DNA from: Bugulina stolonifera
Lineage: Eukaryota > Bryozoa > Gymnolaemata > Cheilostomatida > Bugulidae
DNA length: 64,000 nucleotides
NCBI GenBank assembly: GCA_935421135.1
Contig: OW285189.1
Location: 14,715,072 to 14,779,071 of the forward strand
Direction: 5' to 3'
The notes under the pieces are model-generated. The model worked only from the letters and a program-made list of their open reading frames with translations. It was not told where the DNA came from and ran no database searches. Positions 5,145 through 60,478 of the stretch are shown piece after piece; the stretch's first letter is position 1; each line of letters starts with the position of its first letter. Position numbers and translations under genes: made by a program.

Positions 5145-8100
5145 ATGGCATCAGAAAATTATCAACTTATTGACAAAGGTAGTAGCAGCAGACATGAAGG
5201 TGGGACGATTGCATATGACAGTACTCGAGCTGTTAACGAATCGGTTGACTATTCAACCGCTTGGAAAGAAGACGACAAAAAAACTGGATCCTTCTCTAGA
5301 AAGCAGAAAGTCACTCTTCTCTCTGCTTGTATTGGACAGTTCCTCTGCCATGCTTGTGCATCTCTACCGGCACCATTCTTACCAAAGTTGGTGAGTTTAT
5401 GTTTATGTTGATCAATCCTAACTGATAAGTCTCACAGACAGTGCAACTGAGCAAATTGGATGAAAAGAGAATTCTGAACTAATTTGGTAAATGGTAGCAT
5501 TGCTTAGTGATCAGTGATAACAAACACAATGTACAGTCAAGCAAACATAGATTTAGAAAGTATTATAAGTGGATGTGAGTGTTAAGAGCCAAGCATTTAA
5601 AATGAGATAATATGTTGGCGAACATCTGTAAAACTATATTTTAGAATCAATGATAATTATAATACTTGTAGATACTTTATATTACAGTAGCTTACCTTTG
5701 TATATCTCATACAACATTGTGACATGACATGAATTACTCATCAAAGTTATTTCCTTCTAGAATGAGAAGCACAATATAGACTCCGATTTGACTGGTTGGA
5801 TACTTGGGCTATTTTCATTGATCCAGTTAGTACTATGTCCAGTATTCGGAAAATTGGTAAGTATTGGAATCAGCTGCCACGAAACTATTTTGATTATTTG
5901 GTGTGGCCTACGTGTGGCTTATGCGAGCCGGGTAAACAGGAGAATCATGTGAAATAAACTTCATAGCAGCCAATCTTCTGTGAAATGGTTATTAAACTGA
6001 AGCTGACTTAAATGTAAACCACAAGGCCTCCGGCAAATGTTGATCATGCACCCGATTCCTATAGGCATGCACATCATAATCAGTTTGTCTCTCTACTTGA
6101 TAAGAGAAACTCAAAATAATACATTGTACAGCAATAAATATTATTCTTATCTTTTACTACTACATGACTCTACACTGTTATGTACATATAACCATGGCCC
6201 ACCTATTCTTGAAATATTTAATTGGAAACCTTTAAAAGGGGGAAGAAATATAGCAACTGTTGCCAAGTATTAGTAGTACAGGTTGGCTTTGTTTACAGTT
6301 TATGCATGCGTTTTGTACATAGTGACTTTCTAGTGTGCAAAGCATGGGCTTGTATTTGAAACTTGCTAGCTTTGCTCAGAAGTAATAACACAAGGTGCAA
6401 GATGTTGTAATAGTATTGTCTCAAATTAGAAAGTGGAGGTAACTCCCTTCCTCCCTCATATTCCAATCTAAACAGACGGGTGGGTTTGCAAGTTTTTACA
6501 CCTACACCTGTATGAGATGCACATCTGAATGTAAATGTAAATAGGGCAGTGTTGATGTGGGTTACCAACATTGTGAGGTTTGATATCGACGTCAGATCTG
6601 AAGCTACTGCAACTGCTACTTTTGCAGATACACCATGCTGGTCTTCACACAATTTTTGTATTTGGACTGTTTTTCTGTGGTGGAGTAACAGTAATATTTG
6701 GTGCACTGGAATATGTTCCAATACCAGAGAGAGAAGATAACTCTATAAACGCTACTTACCTTTCCTTGGTATTGATTCTACGCATAGGACAAGCTGCCGG
6801 TACTGCTGCTTTCTTCCTAGCTGTCATGTCTCTACTTCCTGTCACATTTCCTGACAACACCATTACTGTGCTGGTATGAGTAAAGTCTATCTACCGCATG
6901 TGCATCAGACCTATCAAGCTTCCAAATGAAGAAAGAGGGGTGATGTAGCATGGCGGTGGGTGTGCAATTCAGATTAATAATTTGGGCTGATACATAGAAG
7001 TGGGGGAGGGGGGGGGCAAATCCCCAGCTTATTGAGGGAGACTTAATAGGTAATGATGTACATGCACATGTATGTTGTAGAGTGATTTGTGTGTGTTGTG
7101 GAGATGTAGATGCATGTTACATGTGTTCACCCACAGTGTATATACATATGTACATGTATTGTAGCCATATCATGGCAAGCTGACATCTGGAAGGTCATCT
7201 GTGTATAATATGATTGTACGTTTGCTAGATCCTGACGTAAACATGGAAATATCTCATACGATATATTAGCATTGGTGTCTTCGCATATTTTTCACTAATT
7301 TTAATAGAAACTTGTTTATACAGGGTTACTCGAAGACAGCTGTTGGGTTAGGTATAATGAGTGGTCTTGCAATGGGAAGTGGATTGTACAAGGTACTACA
7401 CTAGCTACTAGCTAATGACTAAAATTTCTAGTTCCTATTATTTGATTTGGCGCAGTATAATTATTTAGCATCACATGGTGAGTGATGAATTGGCATTATT
7501 TTCAGATGTATACCTTTACTGGACTATTCGTAGCAGTGTGCTTTGTGTATATTGTGTGCTATCAGGTCTACTGGAGGCTACACACTGTGTAGTCTCCAGT
7601 AGACCTGATACCCTCTTTGAACTTTTAAATTATTCCTATATGTGGGCTGATGGTCATATTCATTGTAAACATTGCCTCTTGCCCCCCCTCCCCCCCCCCC
7701 CCCCCCCCCGTTCCTCTCATGTCCCAGAAAGTAGGTTCTACCTTTAGCCCTGAACCTTGAACTCTAACTAACAAAAACTCTGGCTACACCAAAAATATAC
7801 AATTTATTGAGTATGGCCCAAGAGTAACTAGACCAGGCATTAGAACATGGGCACTCACAAGCTATTGATAATGATTAGAAATTGTCCTCTCTCTATTTCA
7901 TTTCCTCCTCTTTTGAAACTGAGAGAAGATAACTTTGCGTTATTATCACTAGCTTATGAGTTCCCATGTTGTGTTCAACTCAGTTCTAATACCTGGTATA
8001 GTTACACAACATATATTCTGGGTGCATATATACCTGTACATGTATATGATCCTCCGAGTGTATATTTATATATGATCTACCGCCCTATATCTTATCTCAT

Positions 8101-11100
8101 AGCTCTGCCATTTTACCAACAAATAGAACAATGTACATTCTAAGGAAAGTGTTTAATCAAATATAGATAGAGAATATTGTAAAATAATACTTTTTTATGA
8201 TTTGATTTAAGCTTGGAGGTTTCCCGCTGGTGTTTTTTGGTGTTGGAGGAATGATAGTTGTATCTTCTATAATCATGTACTTCTTGCTACCCTTTGATCG
8301 TAAGTAAAGATAACTCCCATCATCTATTTCCATACTATCATTGCGTAGAATTATCTGGATAAGTGGGAATATTTTCTTATTATGGAATGAGTTACATGTA
8401 TTTTTCTTACACTGTTTGAAACTGCTACACACCACCATGTTCCATTAGTAACTCTTTGATTTGTTGTTTTCTAAACCAACATAAAGTATCCCACTTACAT
8501 GTATTATTATTAGCAACTGTGATGTATATTTCACAGTTCAACATCAAAGTGAACAAGATGAAGAACTTCCATTGGCTAAGATACTAACCAATCGAAACAT
8601 AATACTATCTCTAGTACTTGCTTTAAGTACAGGCAGGTGCAATATGGGCCAGCATTGATCCCATCCTGGAGCCTGAACTACGAAACAAGGTACGCGGCTC
8701 ATATGATTGTATCAGCAGGCTATCTATATCATGTCATTTCAAGTTTTGATAGGAAACCAACTCTCTGCTAAGATGAGAGTTGTCTAAAAAATTATTAAAG
8801 ATTATATTACATGCTTTTGGTTATTCATTCAAAGGTGATGAATTCTTCAAATTGCCAACAAAAAGGTGATGCCTGATATCATATTGTGGAAGACTTGTAG
8901 CTTAGGCCTTGGTCAACACTGAATCAGAATTCTACATGAGGGCTAAAAGCTATTTTTCCGACCAGCCATCAATATTATAATACATACATTGCCTACACAT
9001 ACACTCTTGTAAACTTATTGTTCTATATCTGCAGACGTCTCAACTCAGCACAAATGTTATTGAATGTTAATTTTCTGCATTTTACTTTAATTTTCCACAA
9101 CTAAAAAGCGTGAGGAAAAACCAGTGATTGGCCTTATGTATAAACACAAACAGCTAACTGGGCCACAACATTCACATCAGATTCAGAATTATTTATAACA
9201 TTCTGACATTAGTATTACTGTGCATTTGAAACACATGTGATTATTGGATGCTCATGTGTTTTAGTATGGACTATCGGAAGAACTCTGTTCCTTAGCGTTC
9301 CTTTTACTGTCTGTATCTTACACTATTGCCTCACCATTAATTAGTAAAGCCTTAGAGAAATATGTAAGTTTAGACATGTAGTATACTTGTATATATGAAT
9401 AGCTGTATGGAATTGTTTAAAATAGAATGATTTAGCTCCCATAGTTCTTTTAAAAGAAGTAGTAAATTTGAAATACATGTGATTTGTAATCATTAACTCA
9501 TAACAGCAGCTCATGATTATGTTTTGTTAGCCTACATGTACAATAATGAGATCTTATAAGCCAATCATAGTAAGATTAATTGATTAATATATGATTAATA
9601 GTTTATGGATGTCTATTTGTTCAAGAGCCGATGTATTTTCAGAAATGGCTAACATCTGTGCATGTCGCTGTAGCTGGGTTCTTGCTATGTGGAGTAAACT
9701 ATGTGTTCATGGGGCCGTCCCCCATATTCTCAGGGCTACACAGGTATTACAAAGACTATTACATAAACCTTTGAAAGATAAATTAGAGGAGGACAACTGC
9801 TAATTATGATCAATAGCTTATTAGTGCCCATGCTAGTGTACACGTCTATAATATATGAGAAATTACTTGCCAAAGTTCCTAATTACCTGTCATTCCTTGC
9901 TTGTGTATTCTGTATGTAGACATTAGATATACTACTTGACTACTTCACTGTGAGTGTGTGCATGTCTACATGCCTATGTACGAATCATGTTGTGGTTGAG
10001 ACAAAATAAAGAGAGGACAACTCCCTTGTAGTACGAAATGACTACGCTACAACATATATTACATGTCTTGTTACGTATTTAGTGCAGCAAAGTGCCCATA
10101 CACTACCATACTTTTATATTGTGAATGAGCTCTAACAACTACCACATATTCTGTATTTATATTGGTGGTCTCTCGATTAAACATTGTTTTTTCTGACAAC
10201 ATAACTTGTGTCTCAGGTTCAGCCAATGTAACAGTTTATTAATATTACAGACCACTCTGGTTACTGCTGGTCAATCTGGGTGTCATGGGAGTAACCCTAG
10301 CGTTGATGATAATTCCTTCTCTGAATCTATCATTTGGTAAAGAAGAGGCGTAAGTATTGATAGCATTGTCTCGAACCTTGATCTATGAAGCTACTGATAG
10401 CATTGTCTCTAACCTTGATCTATGAAGCTACTGATAGCAATGTCTCTAACCTTGATCTATGAAGCTACTGATAGCAATGTCTGTAACCTTGATCTATGAA
10501 GCTACTGATAGCAATGTCTCTAACCTTAGTCTATGAAGCCACTGATAGCAATGTCTCTAACCTTGATCTATGAAGCTACTGATAGCAATGTCTCTAACCT
10601 TGATCTATGAAGCTACTGATAGCAATGTCTCTAACCTTGATCTATGAAGCTACTGGTAGCAATGTCTCTAACCTTGATCTATGAAGCTACTGGTAGCAAT
10701 GTCTCTAACCTTGATCTATGAAGCTATTGATAGTAATGTCTCTAACCTTGATCTATGAAGCTACTGATAGTAATGTCTCTAACCTTGATCTATGAAGCTA
10801 CTGATAGCAATGTCTCTAACCTTGATCTATGAAGCTACTGATAGCAATGTCTCTAACCTTGATCTATGAAGCTACTGATAGCAATGTCTCTAACCTTGAT
10901 CTATGAAGCTACTGGTAGCAATGTCTCTAACCTTGATCTATGAAGCTACTGATAGCAATGTCTCTAACCTTGATCTATGAAGCTATTGATAGCAATGTCT
11001 CTAACCTTGATCTATGAAGCTACTGATAGCAATGTCTCTAACCTTGATCTATGAAGCTATTGATAGCAATGTCTCTAACCTTGATCTATGAAGCTACTGG

Positions 11101-12503
11101 TAGCAATGTCTCTAACCTTGATCTATGAAGCTACTGGTAGCAATGTCTCTAACCTTGATCTATGAAGCTACTGGTAGCAATGTCTCTAACCTTGATCTAT
11201 GAAGCTACTGATAGCAATGTCTCTAACCTTGATCTATGAAGCTATTGATAGCAATGTCTCTAACCTTGATCTATGAAGCTACTGATAGCAATGTCTCTAA
11301 CCTTGATCTATGAAGCTATTGATAGCAATGTCTCTAACCTTGATCTATGAAGCTACTGATAGCAATGTCTCTAACCTTGATCTATGAAGCTACTGATAGC
11401 AATGTCTCTAACCTTGATCTATGAAGCTACTGATAGCAATGTCTCTAACCTTGATCTATGAAGCTACTGATAGCAATGTCTCTAACCTTGATCTATGAAG
11501 CTACTGATAGCAATGTCTCTAACCTTGATCTATGAAGCTACTGATAGCAATATCTCTAACCTTAATCTATGAAGCTACTGATAGCAATGTCTCTAACCTT
11601 GGCCTACTGTTGGAGCATTCATTTAGTTCATAATGGCTCTACAGCTAAATGTTTGTCAGCATGGTACTGTATATGCTCACCATCCAGGTCATTTGACTGT
11701 GAGTCATAAACGCCTACTTTGGCAAACCAATAGAATAGAGATATTAATGTATGCAAGAACCAGAATGCTAGTGCAACCGTTGGGGTTTGGAGTCTAATAA
11801 ATACATTATACTACATACATGTACATGGATTAAAGTGTATAGTAACATAATCTACTATATGGAAAAGCACCCTTACACAATACTCAACAGCTTGAATTCA
11901 TTCTATGCATTATGGCTATTTGATAGTGATATGAGTTGAAGTTGTCTTCTCTTCTCTGTTATTTCTATTTTATTACTAATAGAAGATAAGAACTTCCCAA
12001 TTCCAATGACAGGCACTTTACAGGTGCTTCATGCTCATGAGTTTGTGTTACAGCGCTGATGAGACTGGTAACTCCACAAACACTTCAAATACAGTCACGA
12101 TATCTGGTCTATGGTCCAGTGCAAATGCTCTTGGGTATGTGATACTTGTACTCACTGTAAACAGCCTTTACAAGTACATACACAATTATGGTATATGTAC
12201 TTATTCATGTACACTCTACAAGTATATGTACACTCTGCATGTTGTATAACAGAGCTACCTGATATATAGACACACACTTTAGTCTAATTGCTAATGGTAA
12301 TGCAAGCTCAGCCATTGTAATTATTATCCATATTTTATATGATGAATGTAATATGTTACAGTGACTTTGTTGGACCCAGTATATCAGGAGTGATAACAGA
12401 GCATGCTAGTTTTGGTTGGACAATGACCAGCTATGCCTTTATCTGTCTGTTGTGTATACTACTAATACTAGCTGTAAGACTGGTAGATGTTATAAAGAAA
12501 TAG
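5145..12503 (+). CDS. SLC18B1-like: SLC18B1-like MFS transporter, gene 1 of the array, with an exon-6 frameshift
   Basis: Predicted membrane transporter of the major facilitator superfamily, closest in recalled sequence to SLC18B1 (vesicular polyamine/amine transporter). Exons: 5145-5390, 5761-5856, 6628-6873, 7324-7392, 8212-8299, 8537-8689, 9265-9363, 9643-9743, 10251-10349, 12054-12134, 12362-12503. All introns are GT-AG and exon phases match genes 2 and 3. Family marks are the SLPAPFLPKL end of exon 1, DLTGW and VFGK in exon 2, FFCGGVTVIFG in exon 3, IWASIDPILEPEL in exon 6 and FVGPSISGVITEH in exon 11. The start is the ATG at 5145. Exon 6 has CAGG duplicated at 8630-8637, which brings a TGA about 20 bases later. 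With the duplication ignored, the protein would be 471 residues. It could be a pseudogene, or the duplication could be an assembly error. The cytosolic tail is much shorter than in genes 2 and 3. Confidence 0.8.
7561..7609. repeat. 49-bp near-perfect hairpin in intron 4 of gene 1
   Basis: ATCAGGTCTACTGGAG and its reverse complement enclose CTACACA and TGTGTAG, with one mismatch in the stem and a single central base. It sits 169 bases after exon 4. It could be a recent templated inversion or a small hairpin RNA source, and nothing here decides between them. Confidence 0.6.
7680..7710. repeat. C-rich homopolymer run
   Basis: The intron carries almost uninterrupted C for about 30 bases, in intron 4 of gene 1. 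It is probably length-variable and error-prone. Confidence 0.7.
10355..11600. repeat. 37-bp minisatellite, about 34 units, in intron 9 of gene 1
   Basis: The unit reads about GATAGCAATGTCTCTAACCT followed by TGATCTATGAAGCTACT. The array starts within six bases of the exon 9 donor at 10350. Units differ by single bases (ACTGATAG, ACTGGTAG, ATTGATAG), and several variants recur in blocks, which suggests higher-order duplication. Genes 2 and 3 lack it. Confidence 0.9.
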
Positions 12504-14179: not shown

Positions 14180-17100
14180 ATGTCAACAATGAGTACTGCC
14201 GACAGCGGAAGTGACCCAACAAGTTTGGAAAATAAATGGGAGGACAGTGATAAGCCAGACAGTAGTCGAAGGGATCAAGATTGTTCACATGTGATTGGTA
14301 GCCTCAGTACCACCACTGGTAACGATGATCCAGAGCAGGATAGTATAACAATCTCATATACACGGAATCAGAAGATTATATTAGCCCTAGTACTGACTGG
14401 ACAGTTCCTCTGTAACTCATGTGTTTCTTTACCTGCCCCTTTCCTGCCTAAACTGGTGAGTGCCCTGTTTACTGTGCATGCTGTATGTTACATATACTTA
14501 TCAATTATAAGTTACGGAACTGATAACTGTACCGCCACTGTAGATGTGAGCGTGGCCTGAGAGTGTGGAGGCAGCCCCCAACTAACATTAGATTACCTAT
14601 ACTTGGGAGGAGCTAGACAGAAATAAAGCTTTTTATTGCGGGTCACGGTTTGGGGTAAACAAGGGTTTGATTTCTAACGTTAGTAATGATAGCTGGAGTT
14701 ATCTTCTTTTTCTCTCACCCCATTTCATTCTCACGTCAAGTTCATGTCTTTCGCTACTACAGTTTGGTTCTGCATTTTTCTACATTGCTAGCACTGCAGA
14801 GTAGTTTTCTCCCTGTCATAACTGTTGGTACTCCAGGTGCTTGAATCAATCTTATGAATAATCAGGAAATTATTGCATATGGTATTCCTAATGTTGGCAG
14901 ATTTTCACTTGAAATCAGTATAAACCTGGGATACTATTTTCTTCAGAAGGTTTACAGCCCAGATCTCGGCGTGCAGTTACAGTACTAAGCTAAAGTATTT
15001 ATCTATTGGATGTGATAAGGATGCTGATTTGTGAAATCTTTAGTTGAGAGTAGTGGTTGAAGGTGTAGCTAAGGCTATTCAATATATTTATTAGATATCA
15101 TTGTTATTTCAGGACGAAACCCACAACATTAACTCAGATTTGACTGGTTGGTTACTTGGCTTATTTGCGTTGGTGCAATTAGTTATGTGTTCTGTGTTTG
15201 GAAAAGCTGTGAGTACTCCTAGTAATTGTATACATGTATAAGCGTATGCGCATATGACGTGTATACGTGTATATGTGTATGCGCGTATGCGTGTATAGGT
15301 GTATACGTGTAAATACCTGTACGTATACGTACACGTGTAGGTGTACGTGTATGTGTCTGCGTATGCGTAAGCGAATGCGTAAGTGTATGCTCAAATATAT
15401 GCGTACGTGTGGGCATACATGTACATGTGGCATACATGTACATGTGCATGTACACATACATGTATGTACAATGTATACATGTATGTGTAAATGTACATGT
15501 ATGGAAACGTGTAGACTATAAAAGTTTGCATCGAGTCTCAACTTTCACATAGATCAATAGTATTAATATATTTGGATACACCCAAAGCTTTGCCTGCAAA
15601 TTGCACTTATGCTTTTAAAATAATACAAAAATATCACATTGGATATGTTATAGTTTTTTGCAACGAAATTTATTTGCATTTTACCATTTCAATTACTACT
15701 ACTTTACACGTACTTCAATAAAGCAGATGTGGTCTTTTATGACTGCAAGAACAAACCTAAAACAACCAACCTACTATTATCATGATTTCTTTACTTCAAT
15801 AGATGAGTCACATTGGCTTACGCACAACATTTATAAGTGGACTGTTCTTCTGTGGTGGTTCTACAGCTATATTTGGATTGCTGGAATGTGTGACTTTACC
15901 AGATGATACAGATAAATCCGTGGATGTCACGTATTTAGTGCTAGTGACAGTATTACGTGTGGCACAAGGCGTCGGTTCTGCTGCATTCATAACCGCTGCG
16001 ATGACCCTACTAGTGACTACATTCCCTCACAATGCTACCAAAATACTGGTAAGTTTTAGTGCCAATAAAATGTTCACTTTAAAGTTTACTACAGCACTGT
16101 TCTCTAACATTATGCGCATTTTAACTCGACTGTTTTAATAAAATTAACTGTGCTATGACAATTAGTAATACAAAATTTGGGCCTACAACAGAATTTTTTG
16201 GGTAGTGAAGTGGAGTAGCCTATTGTTATATGGCTGACAATGTGTGATGTAGGCCTACATGTGCTGCCTAGCATTGCCTAGTATTGCCTAGTATTGCCTA
16301 GTATTGCTTAGCATTGCCTAGCATTGCCTAGTATTGCCTAGTATTGCCTAGTATTGCCTAGTATTGCCTAGTATTGCCTAGTATTGCCTAGTATTGCCTA
16401 GTATTGCCTAGTATTGCCTAGTATTGCCTAGTATTGCCTAGTATTGCCTAGTATTGCCTAGTATTGCCTAGTATTGCCTAGTATTGCCTAGTATTGCCTA
16501 GTATTGCCTAGTATTGTATTTTGTGGGGCTGCGTGGCACAAATTATTTCATGTTATCATTTTGACTATTTAAAATTTATGATAATAGCAACTAAACATTC
16601 CTTATACAATGCAATAGGCTATTTGTATCACTGTAAAATTACAAACTAAATAATACTTGCGTTCAAGTTTAAAGGTAATACAGGCTACAATAGTTTATCA
16701 TCAAAAGCCATACTGTGAGATAGGATGGTCCTATGGTCCTACCATTATGACTAAGTGTCATTATTTATGCCCTAGAGTTACTCGGAAACTGTGATAGGAT
16801 GCGGCATAATGGCTGGTCCAGCAATGGGTAGCGGTTTGTATAAGGTAAGGATAACTGATGGACGTTTAATTACTTATTAGTAGTGCTGAACTAATGATAG
16901 AGATTATATAGTATTATATATATGTATATACACTATATATACATGTACATGTTACATAACATATGTAAGCTAGATCCTGTGCACCTATTCTACTGTTTAT
17001 TACCATCAGTTCTATTTCTCTCTTCCATTAGCTCGGAGGGTTCCTTGTGACGTTTAGTGCTGTTGGTGGTTTAATGGTATTGGTTTCTCTCATCATGCTT

Positions 17101-21015: not shown

Positions 21016-21397
21016 ATATGTTTCTACTCCAACTACGCTGGGAAAACCCACTAATTGCTTTACTGTTCCTTAGCTAAATGCGTTTTTATACTGTTGTCCT
21101 GTGCATGTGATGCACTCGTTATATAAAATGAAGGGACCGCATAATTCAAACTTGACCTAATTCAAACCAATTATGATGGTTCCATGGAGTTTGAACTAAA
21201 CAAGCTCCACTGTACCAGCATAACTGAATACATACAGGTGATATGAAGAAATGGTTATTGGTTGGCGTGTAAGTGTGTTATGAGGAAGTGTCATAGGTAT
21301 TATCTCTAAATATTAAATGAAGACTTTACAGGTGAGTCCTTTAAAATTTATTCAAAAAGTTGTTCGACTGCACAGGACAAATATATGGGCACCCTGT
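21016..21397. other. Spacer with the Polinton target site
   Basis: It matches 59016-59243 except for an extra segment of about 140 bp (21056-21200), absent downstream of gene 3. The six bases CCCTGT at 21392-21397 are the left target-site copy. Confidence 0.55.
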
Positions 21398-21419
21398 AGT
21401 AGTATAGTCAGTGCAGATC

Positions 21420-21905
21420 TACACAGACACCCGGCCCTTTCCGCGTCGTATTAGCCCTAGATCCAAAAACTCCCCGGGCGGACGACCACCCCACCCGTCC
21501 TCTCGCCCCTCCTCTCCCCTAAACCTCACTCTATGTGCAAAGCCCTAGAACCTACTCCCCCCCATCGCGGGTGGGGTTTCAAAAACCTCATCGGCTGTTC
21601 CGTAGAACCCAGTCTAAAGAGCAAACCCCTCGCCCGGTCCCACGGCTCGGGCGAGGGGGCGCGCGTACGCGCGCGCCCCCCGCCCCGCGAACCCCACCCG
21701 TCCTCCCTCCACCCGTCCCCGCCCCTCCCCACCCCTCCCCACCCCAAACCCCTCCGCCTCGCCCTCCGCCTCGCGGCGGTTCTCGTTCGCGAGTCCAGCC
21801 GTGGCCCCACGCCGCCGTCCCCCCGCCCATCCCCCGCCCCTCCCCCGCTCTCCCGCCCCAACGACCCGTCGCGGCCCTCGCGGGCGGACCGTCGGCTGGA
21901 GTAGG
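21420..21905. repeat. GC-rich outer block of the left palindrome arm
   Basis: A strongly C-rich stretch (CCCCACCC-type words and the GCGCGTACGCGCGC palindrome near 21659) is mirrored at 28625-29115. Open frames in several phases here are proline- or glycine-rich and reflect composition, not coding. Confidence 0.7.
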
Positions 21906-22570
21906 GTGAAGCGAAGGAAAATACGGGTTAGAGTAATGATATCCGGCTATGAAAAACGTGAGCGAGGGTAATGGTACACGAATTTGTTTTAAATTTCAAT
22001 ACGTTTGAGAGTAATAGTACGGTGAAGCGAAGAAAAATACGGGTTGGAGTAATGATAGGGTGCGCCCGTGCGGAGTGCCCGTGCAGAGTTTACGACGCTG
22101 ACTATACTACTATAAGAAACTTACCGAGTGGTGGTGGTGGTGCTTCCGGATGATTTCTTCGCCGGGGACTGTTGAGACTGAACTGGTCGGGGTGACACCG
22201 CACTCGCGCGCTCCTCCGTTCGAGCGCCCCCGGACCTCCGATGAAAGACTCGCGCCTTAACCCTCGTTTCCCTGGTTTGGCGAGGTAAATGGTTTTTAAT
22301 GTATTAGCTAGTGTTTTATTGCTCGGTTTTAAGGTTACAACCGGTAAACCCTCCGTTTTGAGGACGGAGACCCCTTACAATAGAGAGTGAATGTGAAGAA
22401 AAATATACGGGTATATGTACAAGGGTTATGTTGCACTGTTCGTTTACTCTCCAATTTATCGAATGAAGTAGTCTCATCTCCGAGAAATCAGTACTAGCAT
22501 TCTATAGGACTCGTACTCACCCCGTCTTCTGCAACCTTCCGCTTACCATAGAGGTAGGTGAGTCCGGTCT

Positions 22571-22720
22571 TTAGCTGGGTGTAGCTATACGTTTGGTTTC
22601 CTCTTCTGATAAATCTTTATCTTTTCGGATGAGCGCATCTATACTACGAGCACTCAGGGCCATGTAAGCGCTATCCGTGTCCATTTCTACGTACTCAAAC
22701 TCCTCTCTGCTGACGAATCT
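22571..22720 (-). pseudogene. Fragment of protein-primed B-family DNA polymerase, left arm
   Basis: The minus strand encodes about 49 residues containing YVEMDTDSAYMAL, the palm-domain metal-binding motif (DTDS) of B-family polymerases in the form typical of Polintons. The frame ends at TAA (plus-strand 22571-22573). Nothing of the exonuclease domain or the rest of the palm remains nearby, so it is a relic. It mirrors 27386-27535. Confidence 0.65.
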
Positions 22721-22799
22721 GTGAAAATAAAATGGACGGGTTGGAGGGTGCTGACACCGAAGAATAAATAGAGAAGGATTTGATAAAATCTTTGTGTAG

Positions 22800-24450
22800 T
22801 CTAGTTCTACTCATCTATCCATATGTGTACACATGTTAAAATACCTTTATATAATAGTTCAAACACAATTGAATGAATAAAAGACACATATCTAAAGGAG
22901 TATGTCATAGCTATTATTAGCAAGAAAAGACTGTGTGCATGTGTTAAGTCAGCATACATAATACATTAAATAAGCTTTTCACAATAGTAGCGATAGAATA
23001 AATAAAAGGTTGTATGCATGTGTTAAGTCAGCATTATGTAATTCATTAAATAAACTTTTCACAATAGTAGCAATAGAATATATAAAAGGTTGTATGCATG
23101 TGTTAAGTCAGCATTATGTAATACATTAAATAAACTTTTTACAATACTAGCAATAGAATGAATAAATGTGTACACATGGTAAAATACCATTATATAATAA
23201 TTTAAACACAATTGAATGAATAAAACGCACATATATGTAAAGGAGTATGGCATACCTATTATTAGCAAGAAAAGGCTGTGTGCATGTGTTAAGTCAGCAT
23301 ATATAATACATTAAATAAACTTTTCACAAAGTCAGCATAATATATAATACATTAAATAAACTTTTCACAATAGTAGCAATAGAATAAATAAAAGGTTGTG
23401 TGCATGTGTTAAGTCAGCATTATGTAATTCATTAAATAAACTTTTCACAATGGTAGCAATAGAATAAATAAAAGATTGTGTACACATGTTAAAATACCAT
23501 TATATAATAATTTAAACACAATTGAATGAATAAAAGGCACATATGTAAAGGAGTATGACATACCTATTATTAGCAAGAAAAGGCTGTGTGCATGTGTTAA
23601 GTCAGCATATATAATACATTAAATAAACTTTTCACAAAGTCAGCATAAGATATAATACATTAAATAAACTTTTCACAATAGTAGCAATAGAATAAATAAA
23701 GGGTTGTGTGCATGTGTTAAGTCAGCATTATGTAATTCATTAAATAAACTTTTCACAATAGTAGCTATAGAATAAATAAAAGAGTGTGTACACATGTTAA
23801 AATACCTTTATATAATAATTTAAACACAATTGAAAGAATAGGCTGTGTGCATGTGTTAAGTCAGCATATATAATAGATTAAATAAGCTTTTCACATAAAA
23901 TACCTTTATATAATAATTTAAACACAGTTGAAAGAATAGGCTGTGTGCATGTGTTAAGTCAGCATATATAATAGATTAAATAAGCTTTTCACAATAGTAG
24001 CAATTGAATAAATAAAAGGTTGTGTGCATGTGTTAAGTCAGCATTATGTAATTCATTAAATAAACTTTTCACAATAGTAGCAATAGAATAAATAAAAGAT
24101 TGTGTACACATGTTGAAATACCTTTATATAATAGATTAAATAAGCTTTTCACATACCTATTATTAGCAAGAAAAGGCTGTGTGCATGTGTTAAGTCAGCA
24201 TATATAATAGATTAAATAAGCTTTTCACAATAGTAGCAATAGAATAAATAAAAGGTTGTGTGCATGTGTTAAGTCAGCATTATGTAATTCATTAAATAAA
24301 CTTTTCACAATAGTAGCAATAGAATAAATAAAAGATTGTGTACACATGTTAAAATACCTTTATATAATAATTTAAACACAATTGAAAGAATAGGCTGTGT
24401 GCATGTGTTAAGTCAGCATATATAATAGATTAAATAAGCTTTTCAATAGT
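22800..24450. repeat. AT-rich tandem/mosaic repeat array, left arm
   Basis: Units of about 80 bases contain TGTGCATGTGTTAAGTCAGC, then a TTAAATAAACTTTTCACAAT block and AATAGAATAAATAAAAG. They are interleaved with ACACATGTTAAAATACC units. Some units have lost internal blocks. The mirrored array is 25670-27290. Confidence 0.8.
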
Positions 24451-24759
24451 AGGTAGGTGTCACTGTTTTAGTCTCCCTATAATAAATATAAAGTAGCAGG
24501 GTGTAAGTAATTTTTTAGCTTGATAGCATTATATACAATAAACACTTCACAATTGCTGCCAATTACCCTATTTAGCACTAACCTTATGTTCTACTTGTTG
24601 AAATCTCTGATCAGGTGCTGACTAGTAGGTAGCTGTCTCTGTTTTAGTCTCACTCTGTTGACTAGAGGCTGATTGTACATACTGCTAGAGTGAGAAACTC
24701 ATACCTTAAATAGTAGTATTCAGTAGGCGGAGTCTAACCATTTCCCCACCCTTTGCAAT

Positions 24760-25350
24760 ACCACCCCGATGCGTCCCGATGTGAATCCGAAGCCTCCCGA
24801 TGCACCCCGATGCGAATCCGAAGCCTCCCGATGCACCCCGATGCGAATCCGAAGCCTCCCGATGCACCCCGATGTGAATCCGAAGCCTCCCGATGCACCC
24901 CGATGCGAATCCGAAGCCTCCCGATGCACCCCGGTGTGAATCCGAAGCATCCCGATGCACCCCGATGTGAATCCGAAGCCTCCCGATGCACCCCGATGCG
25001 AATCCGAAGCCTCCCGATGCACCCCGATGTGAATCCGAAGCTTCCCGATGCATCCCGATGTGAATCCGAAGCTTCCCGATGCATCCCGAGGTAACCCGAT
25101 GCACCCCGATGTGATTTGACACATCGGGGCACATCGGGATGCATCGGGAGGCTTCGGATTCGCATCGGGGTGCATCGGGAAGCTTCGGATTCGCATCGGG
25201 GTGCATCGGGAGGCTTCGGATTCGCATCGGGGTGCATCGGGAGGCTTCGGATTCACATCGGGACGCATCGGGAGGCTTCGGATTCGCATCGGGAGGCTTC
25301 GGATTCGCATCGGGAGGCTTCGGATTCACATCGGGACGCATCGGGGTGGT
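24760..25350. repeat. GC-rich 31-bp repeat array spanning the palindrome centre
   Basis: Units read GAATCCGAAG, CCTCCCGATG, CACCCCGATG, C on the left and the reverse complement on the right. The centre, near 25116, is a stem of CCCCGATGTG and CACATCGGGG around a short loop. Units vary at a CG/TG position (GATGCG versus GATGTG). The array has CpG in every unit inside otherwise AT-rich DNA. Confidence 0.88.
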
Positions 25351-25669
25351 ATTGCAAAGGGTGGGGAAATGGTTAGACTCCGCCTACTGAATACTACTAT
25401 TTAAGGTATGAGTTTCTCACTCTAGCAGTATGTACAATCAGCCTCTAGTCAACAGAGTGAGACTAAAACAGAGACAGCTACCTACTAGTCAGCACCTGAT
25501 CAGAGATTTCAACAAGTAGAACATAAGGTTAGTGCTAAATAGGGTAATTGGCAGCAATTGTGAAGTGTTTATTGTATATAATGCTATCAAGCTAAAAAAT
25601 TACTTACACCCTGCTACTTTATATTTATTATAGGGAGACTAAAACAGTGACACCTACCTACTATTGAAA

Positions 25670-27290
25670 AGCTTATTTAATCTATTATATATGCTGACTT
25701 AACACATGCACACAGCCTATTCTTTCAATTGTGTTTAAATTATTATATAAAGGTATTTTAACATGTGTACACAATCTTTTATTTATTCTATTGCTACTAT
25801 TGTGAAAAGTTTATTTAATGAATTACATAATGCTGACTTAACACATGCACACAACCTTTTATTTATTCTATTGCTACTATTGTGAAAAGCTTATTTAATC
25901 TATTATATATGCTGACTTAACACATGCACACAGCCTTTTCTTGCTAATAATAGGTATGTGAAAAGCTTATTTAATCTATTATATAAAGGTATTTCAACAT
26001 GTGTACACAATCTTTTATTTATTCTATTGCTACTATTGTGAAAAGTTTATTTAATGAATTACATAATGCTGACTTAACACATGCACACAACCTTTTATTT
26101 ATTCTATTGCTACTATTGTGAAAAGCTTATTTAATCTATTATATATGCTGACTTAACACATGCACACTGCCTTTTCTTGCTAATAATAGGTATGTGAAAA
26201 GCTTATTTAATCTATTATATATGCTGACTTAACACATGCACACAGCCTATTCTTTCAACTGTGTTTAAATTATTATATAAAGGTATTTTATGTGAAAAGC
26301 TTATTTAATCCATTATATATGCTGACTTAACACATGCACACAGCCTATTCTTTCAATTGTGTTTAAATTATTATATAAAGGTATTTTAACATGTGTACAC
26401 ACTCTTTTATTTATTCTATAGCTACTATTGTGAAAAGTTTATTTAATGAATTACATAATGCTGACTTAACACATGCACACAACCCTTTATTTATTCTATT
26501 GCTACTATTGTGAAAAGTTTATTTAATGTATTATATCTTATGCTGACTTTGTGAAAAGTTTATTTAATGTATTATATATGCTGACTTAACACATGCACAC
26601 AGCCTTTTCTTGCTAATAATAGGTATGTCATACTCCTTTACATATGTGCCTTTTATTCATTCAATTGTGTTTAAATTATTATATAATGGTATTTTAACAT
26701 GTGTACACAATCTTTTATTTATTCTATTGCTACTATTGTGAAAAGTTTATTTAATGAATTACATAATGCTGACTTAACACATGCACACAACCTTTTATTT
26801 GTTCTATTGCTACTATTGTGAAAAGTTTATTTAATGTATTATATATTATGCTGACTTTGTGAAAAGTTTATTTAATGTATTATATATGCTGACTTAACAC
26901 ATGCACACAGCCTTTTCTTGCTAATAATAGGTATGCCATACTCCTTTACATATATGTGCGTTTTATTCATTCAATTGTGTTTAAATTATTATATAATGGT
27001 ATTTTACCATGTGTACACATTTATTCATTCTATTGCTAGTATTGTAAAAAGTTTATTTAATGTATTACATAATGCTGACTTAACACATGCATACAACCTT
27101 TTATTTATTCTATCGCTACTATTGTGAAAAGCTTATTTAATGTATTATGTATGCTGACTTAACACATGCACACAGTCTTTTCTTGCTAATAATAGCTATG
27201 ACATACTCCTTTAGATATGTGTCTTTTATTCATTCAATTGTGTTTGAACTATTATATAAAGGTATTTTAACATGTGTACACATATGGATA
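25670..27290. repeat. AT-rich tandem/mosaic repeat array, right arm
   Basis: This is the inverted counterpart of 22800-24450 with the same unit order. Small differences exist, for example one extra TATGTGAAAAGCTTATTTAA block near 26190, so the arms are not absolutely identical. Confidence 0.75.
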
Positions 27291-27385
27291 GATGAGTAGA
27301 ACTAGACTACACAAAGATTTTATCAAATCCTTCTCTATTTATTCTTCGGTGTCAGCACCCTCCAACCCGTCCATTTTATTTTCAC

Positions 27386-27535
27386 AGATTCGTCAGCAGA
27401 GAGGAGTTTGAGTACGTAGAAATGGACACGGATAGCGCTTACATGGCCCTGAGTGCTCGTAGTATAGATGCGCTCATCCGAAAAGATAAAAATTTATCAG
27501 AAGAGGAAACCAAACGTATAGCTACACCCAGCTAA
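27386..27535 (+). pseudogene. Fragment of protein-primed B-family DNA polymerase, right arm
   Basis: It carries the same DTDS-containing fragment as the left arm, with at least one base difference (AAAAATTTA against AAAGATTTA), and ends at TAA 27533-27535. A TTTTCACAG just upstream resembles a splice acceptor, but no partner exon was found. Confidence 0.65.
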
Positions 27536-27833
27536 AGACCGGACTCACCTACCTCTATGGTAAGCGGAAGGTTGCAGAAGACGGGGTGAGTACGAGTCCT
27601 ATAGAATGCTAGTACTGATTTCTCGGAGATGAGACTACTTCATTCGATAAATTGGAGAGTAAACGAACAGTGCAACATAACCCTTGTACATATACCCGTA
27701 TATTTTTCTTCACATTCACTCTCTATTGTAAGGGGTCTCCGTCCTCAAAACGGAGGGTTTACCGGTTGTAACCTTAAAACCGAGCAATAAAACACTAGCT
27801 AATACATTAAAAACCATTTACCTCGCCAAACCA

Positions 27834-28261
27834 AAGGGGTAGACGGTACTAGCGCAACTTCCACTCATACTCACCCCTTATCAGTTCACATTTCTTCTAT
27901 CGTCTTCATTCGTAGGTGGGGGGTGACATCGCACGCGCACGATGCGCTCTCTCCCTATCGGAGTTTGCTACCCGGGGGAAAGTGGACGCGGTGGTCGAAG
28001 AAATTGGTGGGGAGTCAACGACATCATCGTGGAGGCGGGTCTATTTGTAGGATGATGATGATGTTGATGATGATGATGATGATGATGATGAGAAGACAGC
28101 CATCCATTTATTCCATTTATCTATTTCTACCCCTCCGAGCGAGGATGTCGCCGGCGAACCACCTCGCGAGGTCTACGGTTTGAAGCGCGAAAGAGCCACC
28201 GCCTTCACTTTCCCTCGCCGCTCGTCACGGGGACGGGCGATTTCCCTAGGGGAGGGTCCGG
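27834..28261. other. 428-bp segment present only in the right palindrome arm
   Basis: The left arm joins GGTTTGGCGAGG directly to the CCCTCGTTTCCC side, while the right arm has this extra piece between them. It includes a GAT-type microsatellite (about 28050-28091) and CG-rich flanks. It is either a deletion in the left arm or an insertion in the right. Confidence 0.75.
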
Positions 28262-28624
28262 GGGAAACGAGGGTTAAGGCGCGAGTCTTTCATCGGAGGT
28301 CCGGGGGCGCTCGAACGGAGGAGCGCGCGAGTGCGGTGTCACCCCGACCAGTTCAGTCTCAACAGTCCCCGGCGAAGAAATCATCCGGAAGCACCACCAC
28401 CACCACTCGGTAAGTTTCTTATAGTAGTATAGTCAGCGTCGTAAACTCTGCACGGGCACTCCGCACGGGCGTACCCTATCATTACTCCAACCCGTATTTT
28501 TCTTCGCTTCACCGTACTATTACTCTCAAACGTATTGAAATTTAAAACAAATTCGTGTACCATTACCCTCGCTCACGTTTTTCATAGCCGGATATCATTA
28601 CTCTAACCCGTATTTTCCTTCGCT

Positions 28625-29115
28625 TCACCCTACTCCAGCCGACGGTCCGCCCGCGAGGGCCGCGACGGGTCGTTGGGGCGGGAGAGCGGGGGAGGGGCGG
28701 GGGATGGGCGGGGGGACGGCGGCGTGGGGCCACGGCTGGACTCGCGAACGAGAACCGCCGCGAGGCGGAGGGCGAGGCGGAGGGGTTTGGGGTGGGGAGG
28801 GGTGGGGAGGGGCGGGGACGGGTGGAGGGAGGACGGGTGGGGTTCGCGGGGCGGGGGGCGCGCGCGTACGCGCGCCCCCTCGCCCGAGCCGTGGGACCGG
28901 GCGAGGGGTTTGCTCTTTAGACTGGGTTCTACGGAACAGCCGATGAGGTTTTTGAAACCCCACCCGCGATGGGGGGGAGTAGGTTCTAGGGCTTTGCACA
29001 TAGAGTGAGGTTTAGGGGAGAGGAGGGGCGAGAGGACGGGTGGGGTGGTCGTCCGCCCGGGGAGTTTTTGGATCTAGGGCTAATACGACGCGGAAAGGGC
29101 CGGGTGTCTGTGTAG
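28625..29115. repeat. GC-rich outer block of the right palindrome arm
   Basis: This is the reverse complement of 21420-21905, including the CGCGCGTACGCGCGC word. I noticed no coding signal. Confidence 0.7.
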
Positions 29116-29142
29116 ATCTGCACTGACTATACTACTCCCTGT

Positions 29143-39600: not shown

Positions 39601-41258
39601 GAAATCATGACTGCCCTTCATTCTGCTTGTGGCTTTTACAGTGGCTTGCAGCTTCAGTTTTCGGCTATGTTATCAATGTGTAATTATCAACAGGTGCAGA
39701 ATTTTGTGCTCTACAAAATTATGCCTAATATATTTTTTATAGGTAATAATGTGCTAAGCTAACCCAGCTAGATGTTATAGTTAGAAGATTAGTGCCATTC
39801 TACTACTGGAGTACCATTGTGAGGTTATAATACTAAACTATAATATTTTTATGAAGCATGAGCATTGGATATTAATCTTATCAAGGGTGTCTATACAATG
39901 CTTATACCATATCCTGATATCCATATTATCATTTATCATTATTCTGCAGATTTACATTGCCAGAACACTGCAGTAACTCTGGTTGAAATTTTTGGTTGGA
40001 AGTGCATTGGATCTACAATAAATGTTTCTTATACAATGTATAACATACACAGGCTAATGGTTAACTTCATTCATTCATTCATTCATTCATTCATTCATTC
40101 ATTCATTCATTCATTCATTCATTCATTCATTCATTCATTCATTCATTCATTCATTCATTCATTCATTCATTCATTCATTCATTCATTCATTCATTCATTC
40201 ATTCATTCATTCATTCATTCATTCATTCATTCATTCATTCATTCATTCATTCATTCATTCATTCATTCATTCATTCATTCATTTATTCATTCATTCATTC
40301 ATTCATTCATTCATTCATTCATTCATTCATTCATTCATTCATTCATTCATTCATTCATTCATTCATTCATTGAAGCTTCGCGCCAATGGAAGTAACTGGG
40401 ACAACTAGCCAATCACAGTAGGTTATTATGTTGGCTGAATGCCACAAATAATAGGCTACGCCTGTAATATGAACGTGATATTGAATGCAAGCCAGAGTTG
40501 ATGTTTCAACAGTCAATACAAAGCCTGGCCATTGTTCACAAGATCAACCTGCTCTGCACCAAATTATACTGTTTCCACAAAACACCAGTGATCTTTAGAG
40601 CTTGTCTTGCTGTATCGGTGTATGTGTTTTTGAGGCTTATTATTTTAGTGTATCTCAAGTTTGGGTGAAGTGTAGTTAAAAATATTTACCAGGGCAGAAA
40701 TAATAAGTACAGCAATAATAAGTACGGATTCTATAGGTTTCACACTTTAAACTGTAGAACTGAAGATCTCTACAGGTTGTAGTCATATGGACTGAAAATT
40801 TTCAAAATCTATGAAGTTGCGCCTAACTGTTACATGGTGGAGCAGAGCATGCACACTGCATGCCTCATTAATTATTGAGCTGTGCCATACAAATTAGCAC
40901 CTACATGTATGTAAAAGGTCATCAACCATAGCTGTCAAGCTTGAGCGATTAGGTTGGGATGTACTGTATACTAGTTCTCAGCTTGCTTGTAATCAGTGAT
41001 ATTCCATGCTTCGAAATTTGCTTCGTATAATAATGATGAATTAGTACTTCCACACAACTACTCTCTTATGTACTTGTAAATAAAATTGTATAAAATGCCT
41101 TGCTTTGCTAAATAGTAAATACCAACTGAATGTTTCGAACAATGTGTTTTCTAGTGTCGTCTAGTCTAGTGTAGCTCATCCCCAGACAACCAGTTGCACA
41201 TTCTGTAGTAGTAGCAGTAGCGGTAGTAGTAGTGGTAGTAGTAGTGGTAGTGGTAGTG

Positions 41259-59015: not shown

Positions 59016-59243
59016 ATATGTTTCTACTCCAACTACGCTGGGAAAATAAGTTCTACTGTACCAGTATAACTGAACACATGCAGGTAGTATGAAGAAATGG
59101 TTATTGGTTGGAGTATAAGTGTGTTATGAGGAAGTGTCATAGGTATTGTCTCTAAATATTAAATGATGACTCTACAGGTGAGTCCTTTATAGTTTATTCA
59201 AAAAGTTGTTCCACTGAACAGGAAAAATATATGGGCACCCTGT

Positions 59244-60478
59244 GTCTTACGCTAATTGCTACTGCTCTATGCTAAATAAAGCACGTGTCAGCAGTTTAGT
59301 GGGATTCAAAGTCCTAACCATGTCAAGTGGGGAGCCCTCCCAATTTTTGTTGTAAAAGTGGTACTGGATTAGTATCCTATGTTAGTCCAATACTATGTGT
59401 ATTGTAATGCATTTTGTGTAATAAGTAGCTAATGAATACGCTTGTTAGACTCTTACAGTTTGCAGGACGCAACACACTATGCCCTCGGTTTCCATTTGGA
59501 AATTTTACAGTTTTTTGAACTGAGAAAACATGAAAACTGAAAGATACCGAAACACCGTGCAGCACTAAAATTTCTAACTTACTCACTCCACCAGTCAATA
59601 TTGCGCAATATTATGGTTTAAACTATAACTTTTTATATAGGCTAAGAAATAAACATGGTCAATCATTGCAGCCACATGACCATGGCACAGATAAATTCTG
59701 CTATCTTCTCTAATAACTCTCATCTTTTATGTAGCATAGATAATATACGATCAGTATATTATTGCTAAGGAAGTTTAACCATCCTAAACATTTATAATTG
59801 TTTATTTCATTTATATCTAATGTTTCACCAAGTCAACCACCAGCTATATACAGCTCTACTGTTAGCACATGTCAAGCTGCATGTTGCTGCCTAACTGGTA
59901 GAGCAGCGATAGTAATGCAGCTTGCATGAATTATAAAGCTATTGGTAAGTAGTATGCCTAGCCCTATTTGAATCGTAATAATATTATTTTATATGTATAT
60001 ATTAGTCGTATGTATTAGTAAAATTTAATGATACAGGTATACTTTACTTGAAATAGACTGATTGGTTTAGCTAATCGTTCGTGACTGAATGTTCTGCAAC
60101 TAACATGGCCTTTGGGGCACTTGGGTTTAGCATCATCAAATAATTGTTTTCCAAGTGAAATTTGCATCAAGTCGAAAATTCTAGCTCACAGCATCTTTAA
60201 GCATGAGTTCATGACCACCAAACTTTGTGATGGACATGAAATTCCATCATATTATTTGTAACTAGGTTAAATGTAAGAGGAAATATCATCATCATTTGAT
60301 TAAAGGCTTGGATGTACCTGTAGTCTAACATGAGTTTTAAGCACTCGGTTAGAACATGAGTCTCTAACAGCAGCTTTGCAGATGTGACCAAGAATCAACC
60401 ACATAATAATTATAGCCTGTAGCCTTCTGCTTATTTACTGTAGTAGATGAGGAGTTGGAGAAAAGTTCAATGCAGTAG
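59244..60478 (+). promoter_or_regulatory. 5' flank of gene 4
   Basis: It matches 29143-30624 but lacks the inverted duplication, so it shows the ancestral layout. It is a candidate promoter by position and conservation. Confidence 0.4.

Follow-up and report, generated by a model that had tools for sequence, protein, structure and literature searches.

A palindromic element with Polinton-type ends, inherited as a unit, and its polymerase-encoding parent in the bryozoan Bugulina stolonifera

Positions 21398-29136 of a 64,000-nucleotide stretch of the Bugulina stolonifera genome (contig OW285189.1; the whole stretch is here called the window) are filled by a single palindrome of 7,739 bp, one of 40 such elements in the genome. 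Whole palindromes are copied as units, with both of their unequal arms, and the arm outside an AT-rich repeat block is derived from one half of a 9.65-kb element that encodes a DNA polymerase, hereafter the parent. The original prediction, made from the sequence of the window, described the locus as a Polinton-like element whose two arms are almost identical in reverse, and proposed that a snap-back genome of a protein-primed replicon had integrated there as a complete unit. The heteromorphic arms, the place of the window copy among 40, and the existence of relatives with unique cores in the same genome go beyond that view. We favour, with a probability of about two in three, a three-layer system made of Polintons, a polymerase element, and a gene-less palindrome that is copied as a unit.

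Results

The palindrome and its insertion site

Self-comparison of the window showed inverted repeats covering the whole of 21398-29136, and alignments bore out the near-identical inverted arms, the terminal AGT, the CCCTGT duplication and the empty site that had been predicted. The termini, (AGT)2...(ACT)2, read AGTAGTATAGTC...GACTATACTACT and are flanked on each side by CCCTGT (21392-21397 on the left, 29137-29142 on the right). A passage of PMC8097293 gives (AGT)2//(ACT)2 with 6-bp duplications as the commonest vertebrate Maverick end, in agreement with the Polinton-type ends claimed for this locus. When the flanks were joined without the element, they aligned with 59044-59630 at 93.3% identity over 600 alignment columns, through one single CCCTGT (59238-59243). 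This paralogous empty site is available because the regions 16.5-36 kb and 51.6-64 kb of the window share several repeated blocks of 0.6-2.6 kb, with 89-96% identity.

The arms differ in length. The left arm (21398-25116, plus strand; 3,719 bp from terminus to centre) is the deletion or D form, and the right arm (25117-29136, minus strand; 4,020 bp from centre to terminus) is the insertion or I form. In the arm-to-arm alignment a 428-bp block (27834-28261, minus strand) is present in the right arm only, repeat units account for further differences of 80 bp and 76 bp, and there are 6 substitutions when the central minisatellite is excluded.

Copies across the genome

The genome comprises 235 Mb in 27 contigs. 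The terminal 22-mer was found at 789 forward and 800 reverse places with at most 2 mismatches, and its reversed pattern, used as a control, at none. A palindrome-specific junction word occurred at 78 places (39 + 39; control 0), which grouped into 40 palindromes, 38 with both arms and 2 with one arm detected. With the 875-bp outer arm as query, 40 full-length matches at 98-100% (40 of 680 candidates scored) and 21 short ones were obtained. The same termini thus led both to symmetric copies and to relatives of about 9.65 kb with unique cores, for which the prediction had suggested a search.

The 27 palindromes tested, out of 40, all have 6-bp target duplications. Direct matches account for 24 of them; the others are a copy nested on contig C11, which ATTACA flanks at either end (locus L085; junction in L048), the copy at C8:14845952, whose TATGTG duplication matches if one additional terminal AGT is assigned to the element, and the L053 palindrome, with GACAGA on both sides. 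The first 100 terminus places yielded 44 end pairs and 12 unpaired ends. An exact polymerase word of the parent is contained in 35 of these pairs, 30 of which measure 9.3-9.9 kb while 5 have other lengths. Among the rest, 5 are palindromes and 4 are neither, a class into which copies with a mismatched polymerase word would fall.

Two longer end pairs were set aside. The 39-kb pair on C11, which had looked like an autonomous element, turned out to be a palindrome interrupted by 31 kb of inserted DNA, and a 16-kb pair is one palindrome inside another, with the duplication ATTACA. The 31-kb insert (L044/L046, about 3824022-3855138) has no frame longer than 111 residues in the 9 kb listed. Expansion of the terminal triplet was also rejected as a general footprint of priming: 16 exact (AGT)3 ends compare with 1,589 termini when up to 2 mismatches are allowed, which is about the number expected from duplications that end by chance in AGT, and therefore only C8:14845952 was kept.

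Unequal arms and inheritance as a unit

Since the parent has the 428-bp block, its absence from the D arm is taken to be a derived deletion. The deletion junction was found at 10 places in the genome with at most 1 mismatch, a threshold that more divergent deletion arms escape. These places lie in 10 different palindromes, in one arm of each, so that this search gave no D/D element beside 10 D/I ones, and all 10 have matched target duplications. Between any two of the window element and the palindromes L039 and L040, the D arms show 1-2 substitutions and the I arms 0-2, without gaps in either case, whereas the D and I arms within any of the three differ by 5-6 substitutions and by the same indels of 428, 80 and 76 bp. 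L041 and L043 are also D/I, with further private indels. Arms of the same form in different elements are therefore more alike than the two partners of one element, and the palindrome is copied as a unit, in either orientation.

These results contradict the proposal that a snap-back gave rise directly to the window insertion: the same three arm-specific indels are shared by three separate insertions, and in each of 10 elements the deletion was found in a single arm.

Derivation of the arms and centre from the parent

From its terminus inwards, the palindrome arm tracks the left end of the parent, with identity to the parent copy L049 falling from 98% at the terminus to 88% further in. The equivalents of the 544-bp terminal inverted repeat (TIR) of the parent lie at 21398-21941 (plus strand; 98.4% over 547 columns) and, as aligned to the parent, at 28593-29136 (minus strand). 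A 343-bp deletion within the polymerase exon follows, inward of which are 1.6 kb of AT-rich repeats and then parent sequence again, just before the central minisatellite. Remnants of the second polymerase exon are found at 22614-22823 (minus strand), with a DTDS motif, and at 27283-27492 (plus strand), reading outwards and containing YVEMDTDSAYMAL. The AT-rich tandem repeats occupy 22824-24451 (plus strand; periods of about 80, 156, 236 and 308 bp) and, as their right-arm counterpart, 25663-27282 (minus strand). No intact gene was recognised in the palindrome, whose longest frames fall in GC-rich TIR and minisatellite sequence. Each arm has one 79-residue frame with a polymerase-like DTDS motif, an exon remnant only; this very short query had no match in Pfam, PDB or PHROGs, and a 52-residue part of it had two PHROGs matches at E 0.2.

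A 31-bp minisatellite to the left of the centre (24765-25111, plus strand), homologous to the central minisatellite of the parent, faces its inverted counterpart on the right (25132-25345, minus strand). The minisatellite of the parent is itself inverted (parent positions 6455-7199). Between the two arrays of the window copy lies an asymmetric centre, TGATTTGACA (25112-25121, plus strand), the counterpart of the parent loop TGAATTGACA, with similar flanking words; among the palindromes the centre is GTGATTTGACAC, to which GTGAATTGACAC in the parent loop corresponds in a similar context. This centre word is present in each of the seven palindromes for which the full sequence was available (window, L039-L043 and L053). 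Because the centre of the palindrome matches the loop of the inverted minisatellite of the parent, we place the first palindrome, or founder, at the parent hairpin, where it probably arose by fold-back copying or by inverted recombination. The same centre would come from either process, and the two are not distinguishable here. A snap-back origin would fit the lineage, in that most of the arm outside the repeat block comes from one parent half and the centre matches the loop of the parent hairpin, but it is not supported for this insertion.

The polymerase-encoding parent

Two parent elements were read, L049 (9,649 bp) and L052 (9,320 bp). Their 544-bp TIRs are 100% and 99.8% identical to each other, respectively, and their target duplications are TCCATA and GTCATG. 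In L049 a minus-strand open frame of 1,238 residues is succeeded by another that carries the DTDS motif, and L052 has a matching minus-strand frame of 1,252 residues; both parents have plus-strand frames of 191 and 256 residues, besides which unassigned sense frames are few and small. The word taken from the parent polymerase occurs at 276 places (132 + 144) with at most 2 mismatches.

A Pfam scan was made on L049 alone and covered 15 of its 32 frames of at least 100 residues, the remaining 17 lying in TIR or minisatellite. The first frame matches DNA_pol_B_2 (PF03175) at 27.6 bits, just over the cut-off of 25.8, and also C2H2 fingers, with a Vsr-like stretch below the cut-off (18.2 bits). The 191- and 256-residue frames had no Pfam match. 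Neither an rve integrase, which could escape if its frame were split by an intron, nor a packaging ATPase was found in these 15 frames, and the same scan did detect rve in a piece of a resident Polinton (L107). No capsid or protease match was obtained in the parent, a poor test since Pfam named none in the resident Polinton pieces either. L049 has the ends of the palindrome, and none of its Pfam-scanned frames was recognised as a transposase. Since no integrase or packaging ATPase was recognised, the parent is not classed as a Polinton; it cannot be filed as one by its genes, yet it is Polinton-like in its ends. The description of the palindrome as Polinton-like holds to the same extent, for the ends and the duplication, and fails for the gene content of its direct relative, among whose scanned frames none could be recognised as coding for an integrase, packaging ATPase or capsid protein.

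Of 7,990 candidates scored, 914 are relatives of the polymerase region at E <= 0.001, and those named among the 120 listed belong to amphioxus, echinoderms, a sea anemone and a coral. When viral contigs were compared with six peptide words of this polymerase, one word matched, in a sequence not confirmed as a relative. By eye, an LCFFRCL...HF pattern is visible in its N-terminal part and in three relatives compared, and looks like an OTU protease domain, which occurs in protein-primed polymerases according to a passage of PMC11071308. The database protein P0121 is 100% identical to 94% of the 256-residue frame; its AlphaFold model has two strand-rich halves (pLDDT 72.8), and the top 17 PDB matches of the model are titled RPA, POT1 or Teb1, which bind single-stranded DNA through tandem OB folds (E 1e-5 to 4e-3, with low TM-scores). 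On this model, the frame is predicted to encode a tandem-OB single-stranded DNA-binding protein.

Resident Polintons

A second polymerase family accounts for 5 of the 11 PF03175 matches in the genome, at 95-100 bits, and a sixth copy is split into two matches of 45-51 bits. Its identity to the parent polymerase is about 26% in one aligned stretch. Each of these six polymerases has one of the six best matches to the packaging ATPase PF04665 (150 of 192 candidates scored) at a distance of 3.6-3.7 kb, and in one copy (piece L107) an rve integrase is found between polymerase and ATPase (37.9 bits, cut-off 32.6). The 144 weaker PF04665 matches listed are mostly one near-uniform 225-residue frame, another abundant family. 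Capsid genes were not recognised by Pfam in the pieces of these elements. By their polymerase and ATPase, the six near-identical copies look like true Polintons.

Nine termini of these elements were found, giving four pairs of 14.8-15.1 kb; the copy on contig C4 has one end only and that at C1:4.28 Mb none. The C10 copy is flanked by GCATTC on both sides and has the termini AGTAGTATA. The last nine bases of the resident ends found are identical to those of the palindrome family, and from this sharing the simplest inference is that the palindrome is integrated in trans by a Polinton-type integrase. A genome-wide rve search was of no use in deciding the matter, as it was swamped by retroelements (150 of 986 candidates scored). 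In one region (G000:C1:34611747-34634784) a palindrome end lies 98 bp ahead of the start of a 14.8-kb Polinton.

Minimal palindromes and other repeats

Perfect or near-perfect palindromes of 40 bp, made of only the two ends fused at AGATCT, occur at 29 places with at most 3 mismatches (control 0): G000:C1:14505550 and 28 others, including L051 and L062-L081. In the flanks of 21 of them the 6-bp duplication is perfect in 10, has one mismatch in 7 and two or three in 4. The flanking 6-bp words of L064 and L071 are reverse complements and not direct repeats, and L073 (C1:1077715-1077840) is a tandem pair of such copies with one copy of the CCTACT duplication between them. These 40-bp palindromes may have formed by fold-back on a very small scale, or else larger copies may have lost the sequence between their AGATCT words. 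Clean long tandem arrays were also found elsewhere in the window, at 10358-11601 (37-bp units), 16265-16516 (10-bp units) and 40066-40371 (4-bp units).

Discussion

In the three-layer system that we favour, the six resident Polintons would be the source of integrase. The 9.65-kb element would replicate itself as protein-primed linear DNA, and the Polinton-type integrase would act on it in trans through the shared ends. The palindrome would have originated when a strand under synthesis turned back on itself at the inverted minisatellite in the middle of the element, so that one half was copied, or else when two copies recombined inversely at the minisatellite; it would then have multiplied whole to 40 loci, with polymerase, single-stranded DNA-binding protein and integrase all supplied in trans. 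The linear replicating intermediate for which the window, if the original proposal held, would have been direct evidence would belong to such a cycle. A more tentative extension is that these elements are nested parasites: an integrase-less replicon with polymerase and single-stranded DNA-binding protein, present in hundreds of copies, would exploit the integrase of the Polintons, and the gene-less heteromorphic palindrome would exploit both, perhaps passing through a hairpin or a linear protein-capped form.

Several observations weigh against this model. The 1.6-kb AT-rich block of the arm is absent from both L049 and L052, so that the immediate parent is unsampled, and the drop of homology to 88% speaks against a recent founder. 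Over the outer 872 bp, the two arms of one element differ, in the eight pairs compared, by 1, 0, 2, 10, 10, 1, 2 and 0; six of the eight pairs thus differ by 0-2, against a mean of 5.9 between elements (112 comparisons). The outer arms have therefore been homogenised, and arms are not inherited strictly one by one. The I arms of the two elements with 10 differences are identical, and the outer-arm haplotypes of D and I arms are intermixed. As to the supply of proteins, the OB model comes from a two-sequence alignment, with the pLDDT given above and TM-scores near 0.2, and a search of a viral library at E <= 0.001 returned one uncharacterised phage protein only.

If each palindrome were an independent snap-back of the protein-primed element, integrated at once, its palindromic form, its Maverick-type ends and the position of its centre at the parent hairpin would all be accounted for. 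Against this, the 40 palindromes counted have one 343-bp-deletion junction in common, and arm differences of 428, 80 and 76 bp are repeated in the three most similar elements. The presence of 10 D/I elements and no D/D already contradicts it for the D/I class. The census word finds only the descendants of one founder, and palindromes lacking the junction go uncounted; nevertheless, the five palindromes recognised among the 44 end pairs all have it, the pairs classed as neither having been partly read. We regard independent snap-back as very improbable. A similarly low likelihood applies to a classical foldback or two-TIR cut-and-paste transposon with no tie to polymerase replication. Foldback and Galileo do have long, repeat-rich inverted arms with a tandem-repeat block, but here much of the arm comes from a polymerase element and keeps a remnant of its exon, the ends are of Maverick type with 6-bp duplications, and Pfam revealed no transposase in the scanned frames of L049. 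This explanation is already weakened.

A founder produced by recombination of inverse copies or by arm conversion, as in Galileo, and spreading afterwards as in the three-layer system, deserves more weight, and we consider it unlikely but by no means negligible. It would yield the same centre and arms as fold-back, which tells against our preference, expansion of Galileo TIRs by conversion is described in a passage of PMC3573991, and the mixing of D and I outer-arm haplotypes shows that exchange occurs. No specific mark speaks for it, and the strand-displacing polymerases of this class would offer a simpler route within one molecule. Finally, long palindromes are difficult to assemble, and the locus might be thought an assembly artefact or a collapsed allelic inversion. 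The 40 loci marked by junctions, the varied flanks of the 27 duplications, the reproducible arm differences, and the many termini against none in the control lead us to set artefact and chance aside: the palindrome is most unlikely to be the former and is not a chance structure.

Chromosomes do not usually maintain palindromes of several kilobases stably, yet here they form a successful transposon lineage. Their arm-specific indels are natural markers of the replication cycle, which separate copying as a palindrome from remaking by fold-back each time. Furthermore, the parent, with Maverick ends and no recognised integrase or capsid, together with the relatives of its polymerase, provides a route to ask how viral Polintons decay into, or arise from, simple replicons. 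Among the titles and abstract openings listed for Polinton/Maverick literature matching 'palindrom', none concerns palindromic Polintons, and a term search of PMC6431247 did not find 'palindrom'.

The elements described here resemble Polintons/Mavericks in their (AGT)2//(ACT)2 ends, their TIRs, the type-B polymerase of the parent and their 6-bp duplications (all palindromes tested, both parents and one resident Polinton). They differ from them in gene content: integrase, packaging ATPase and capsid genes were not recognised in the 9.65-kb parent, nor any gene at all in the palindrome. The protein-primed linear plasmid kalilo reportedly has hairpin and duplex deletion derivatives; the likeness would lie in a polymerase-based linear replicon that yields hairpin derivatives, whereas the derivative here sits in the chromosome at 40 loci with target duplications. 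Symmetric defective genomes of adenoviruses arise when one end of a protein-primed genome is copied by fold-back, as may have happened here, but our palindrome is inherited as a unit and has unequal arms. Membership of Ginger2, for which a passage of PMC2836005 gives TGTNR ends and RTATAY targets, was rejected, as the ends here are AGTAGT and the targets varied. Galileo and Foldback have comparable non-autonomous 2-TIR copies, which consist of a pair of long inverted arms with internal repeats; according to a passage of PMC3573991 Galileo has a P-superfamily transposase and 7-bp target duplications, in contrast to the polymerase parent and 6-bp duplications found here. By analogy, the closest mechanisms are those of kalilo-type hairpin derivatives and defective adenoviruses, and the closest form is that of the Galileo 2-TIR copies.

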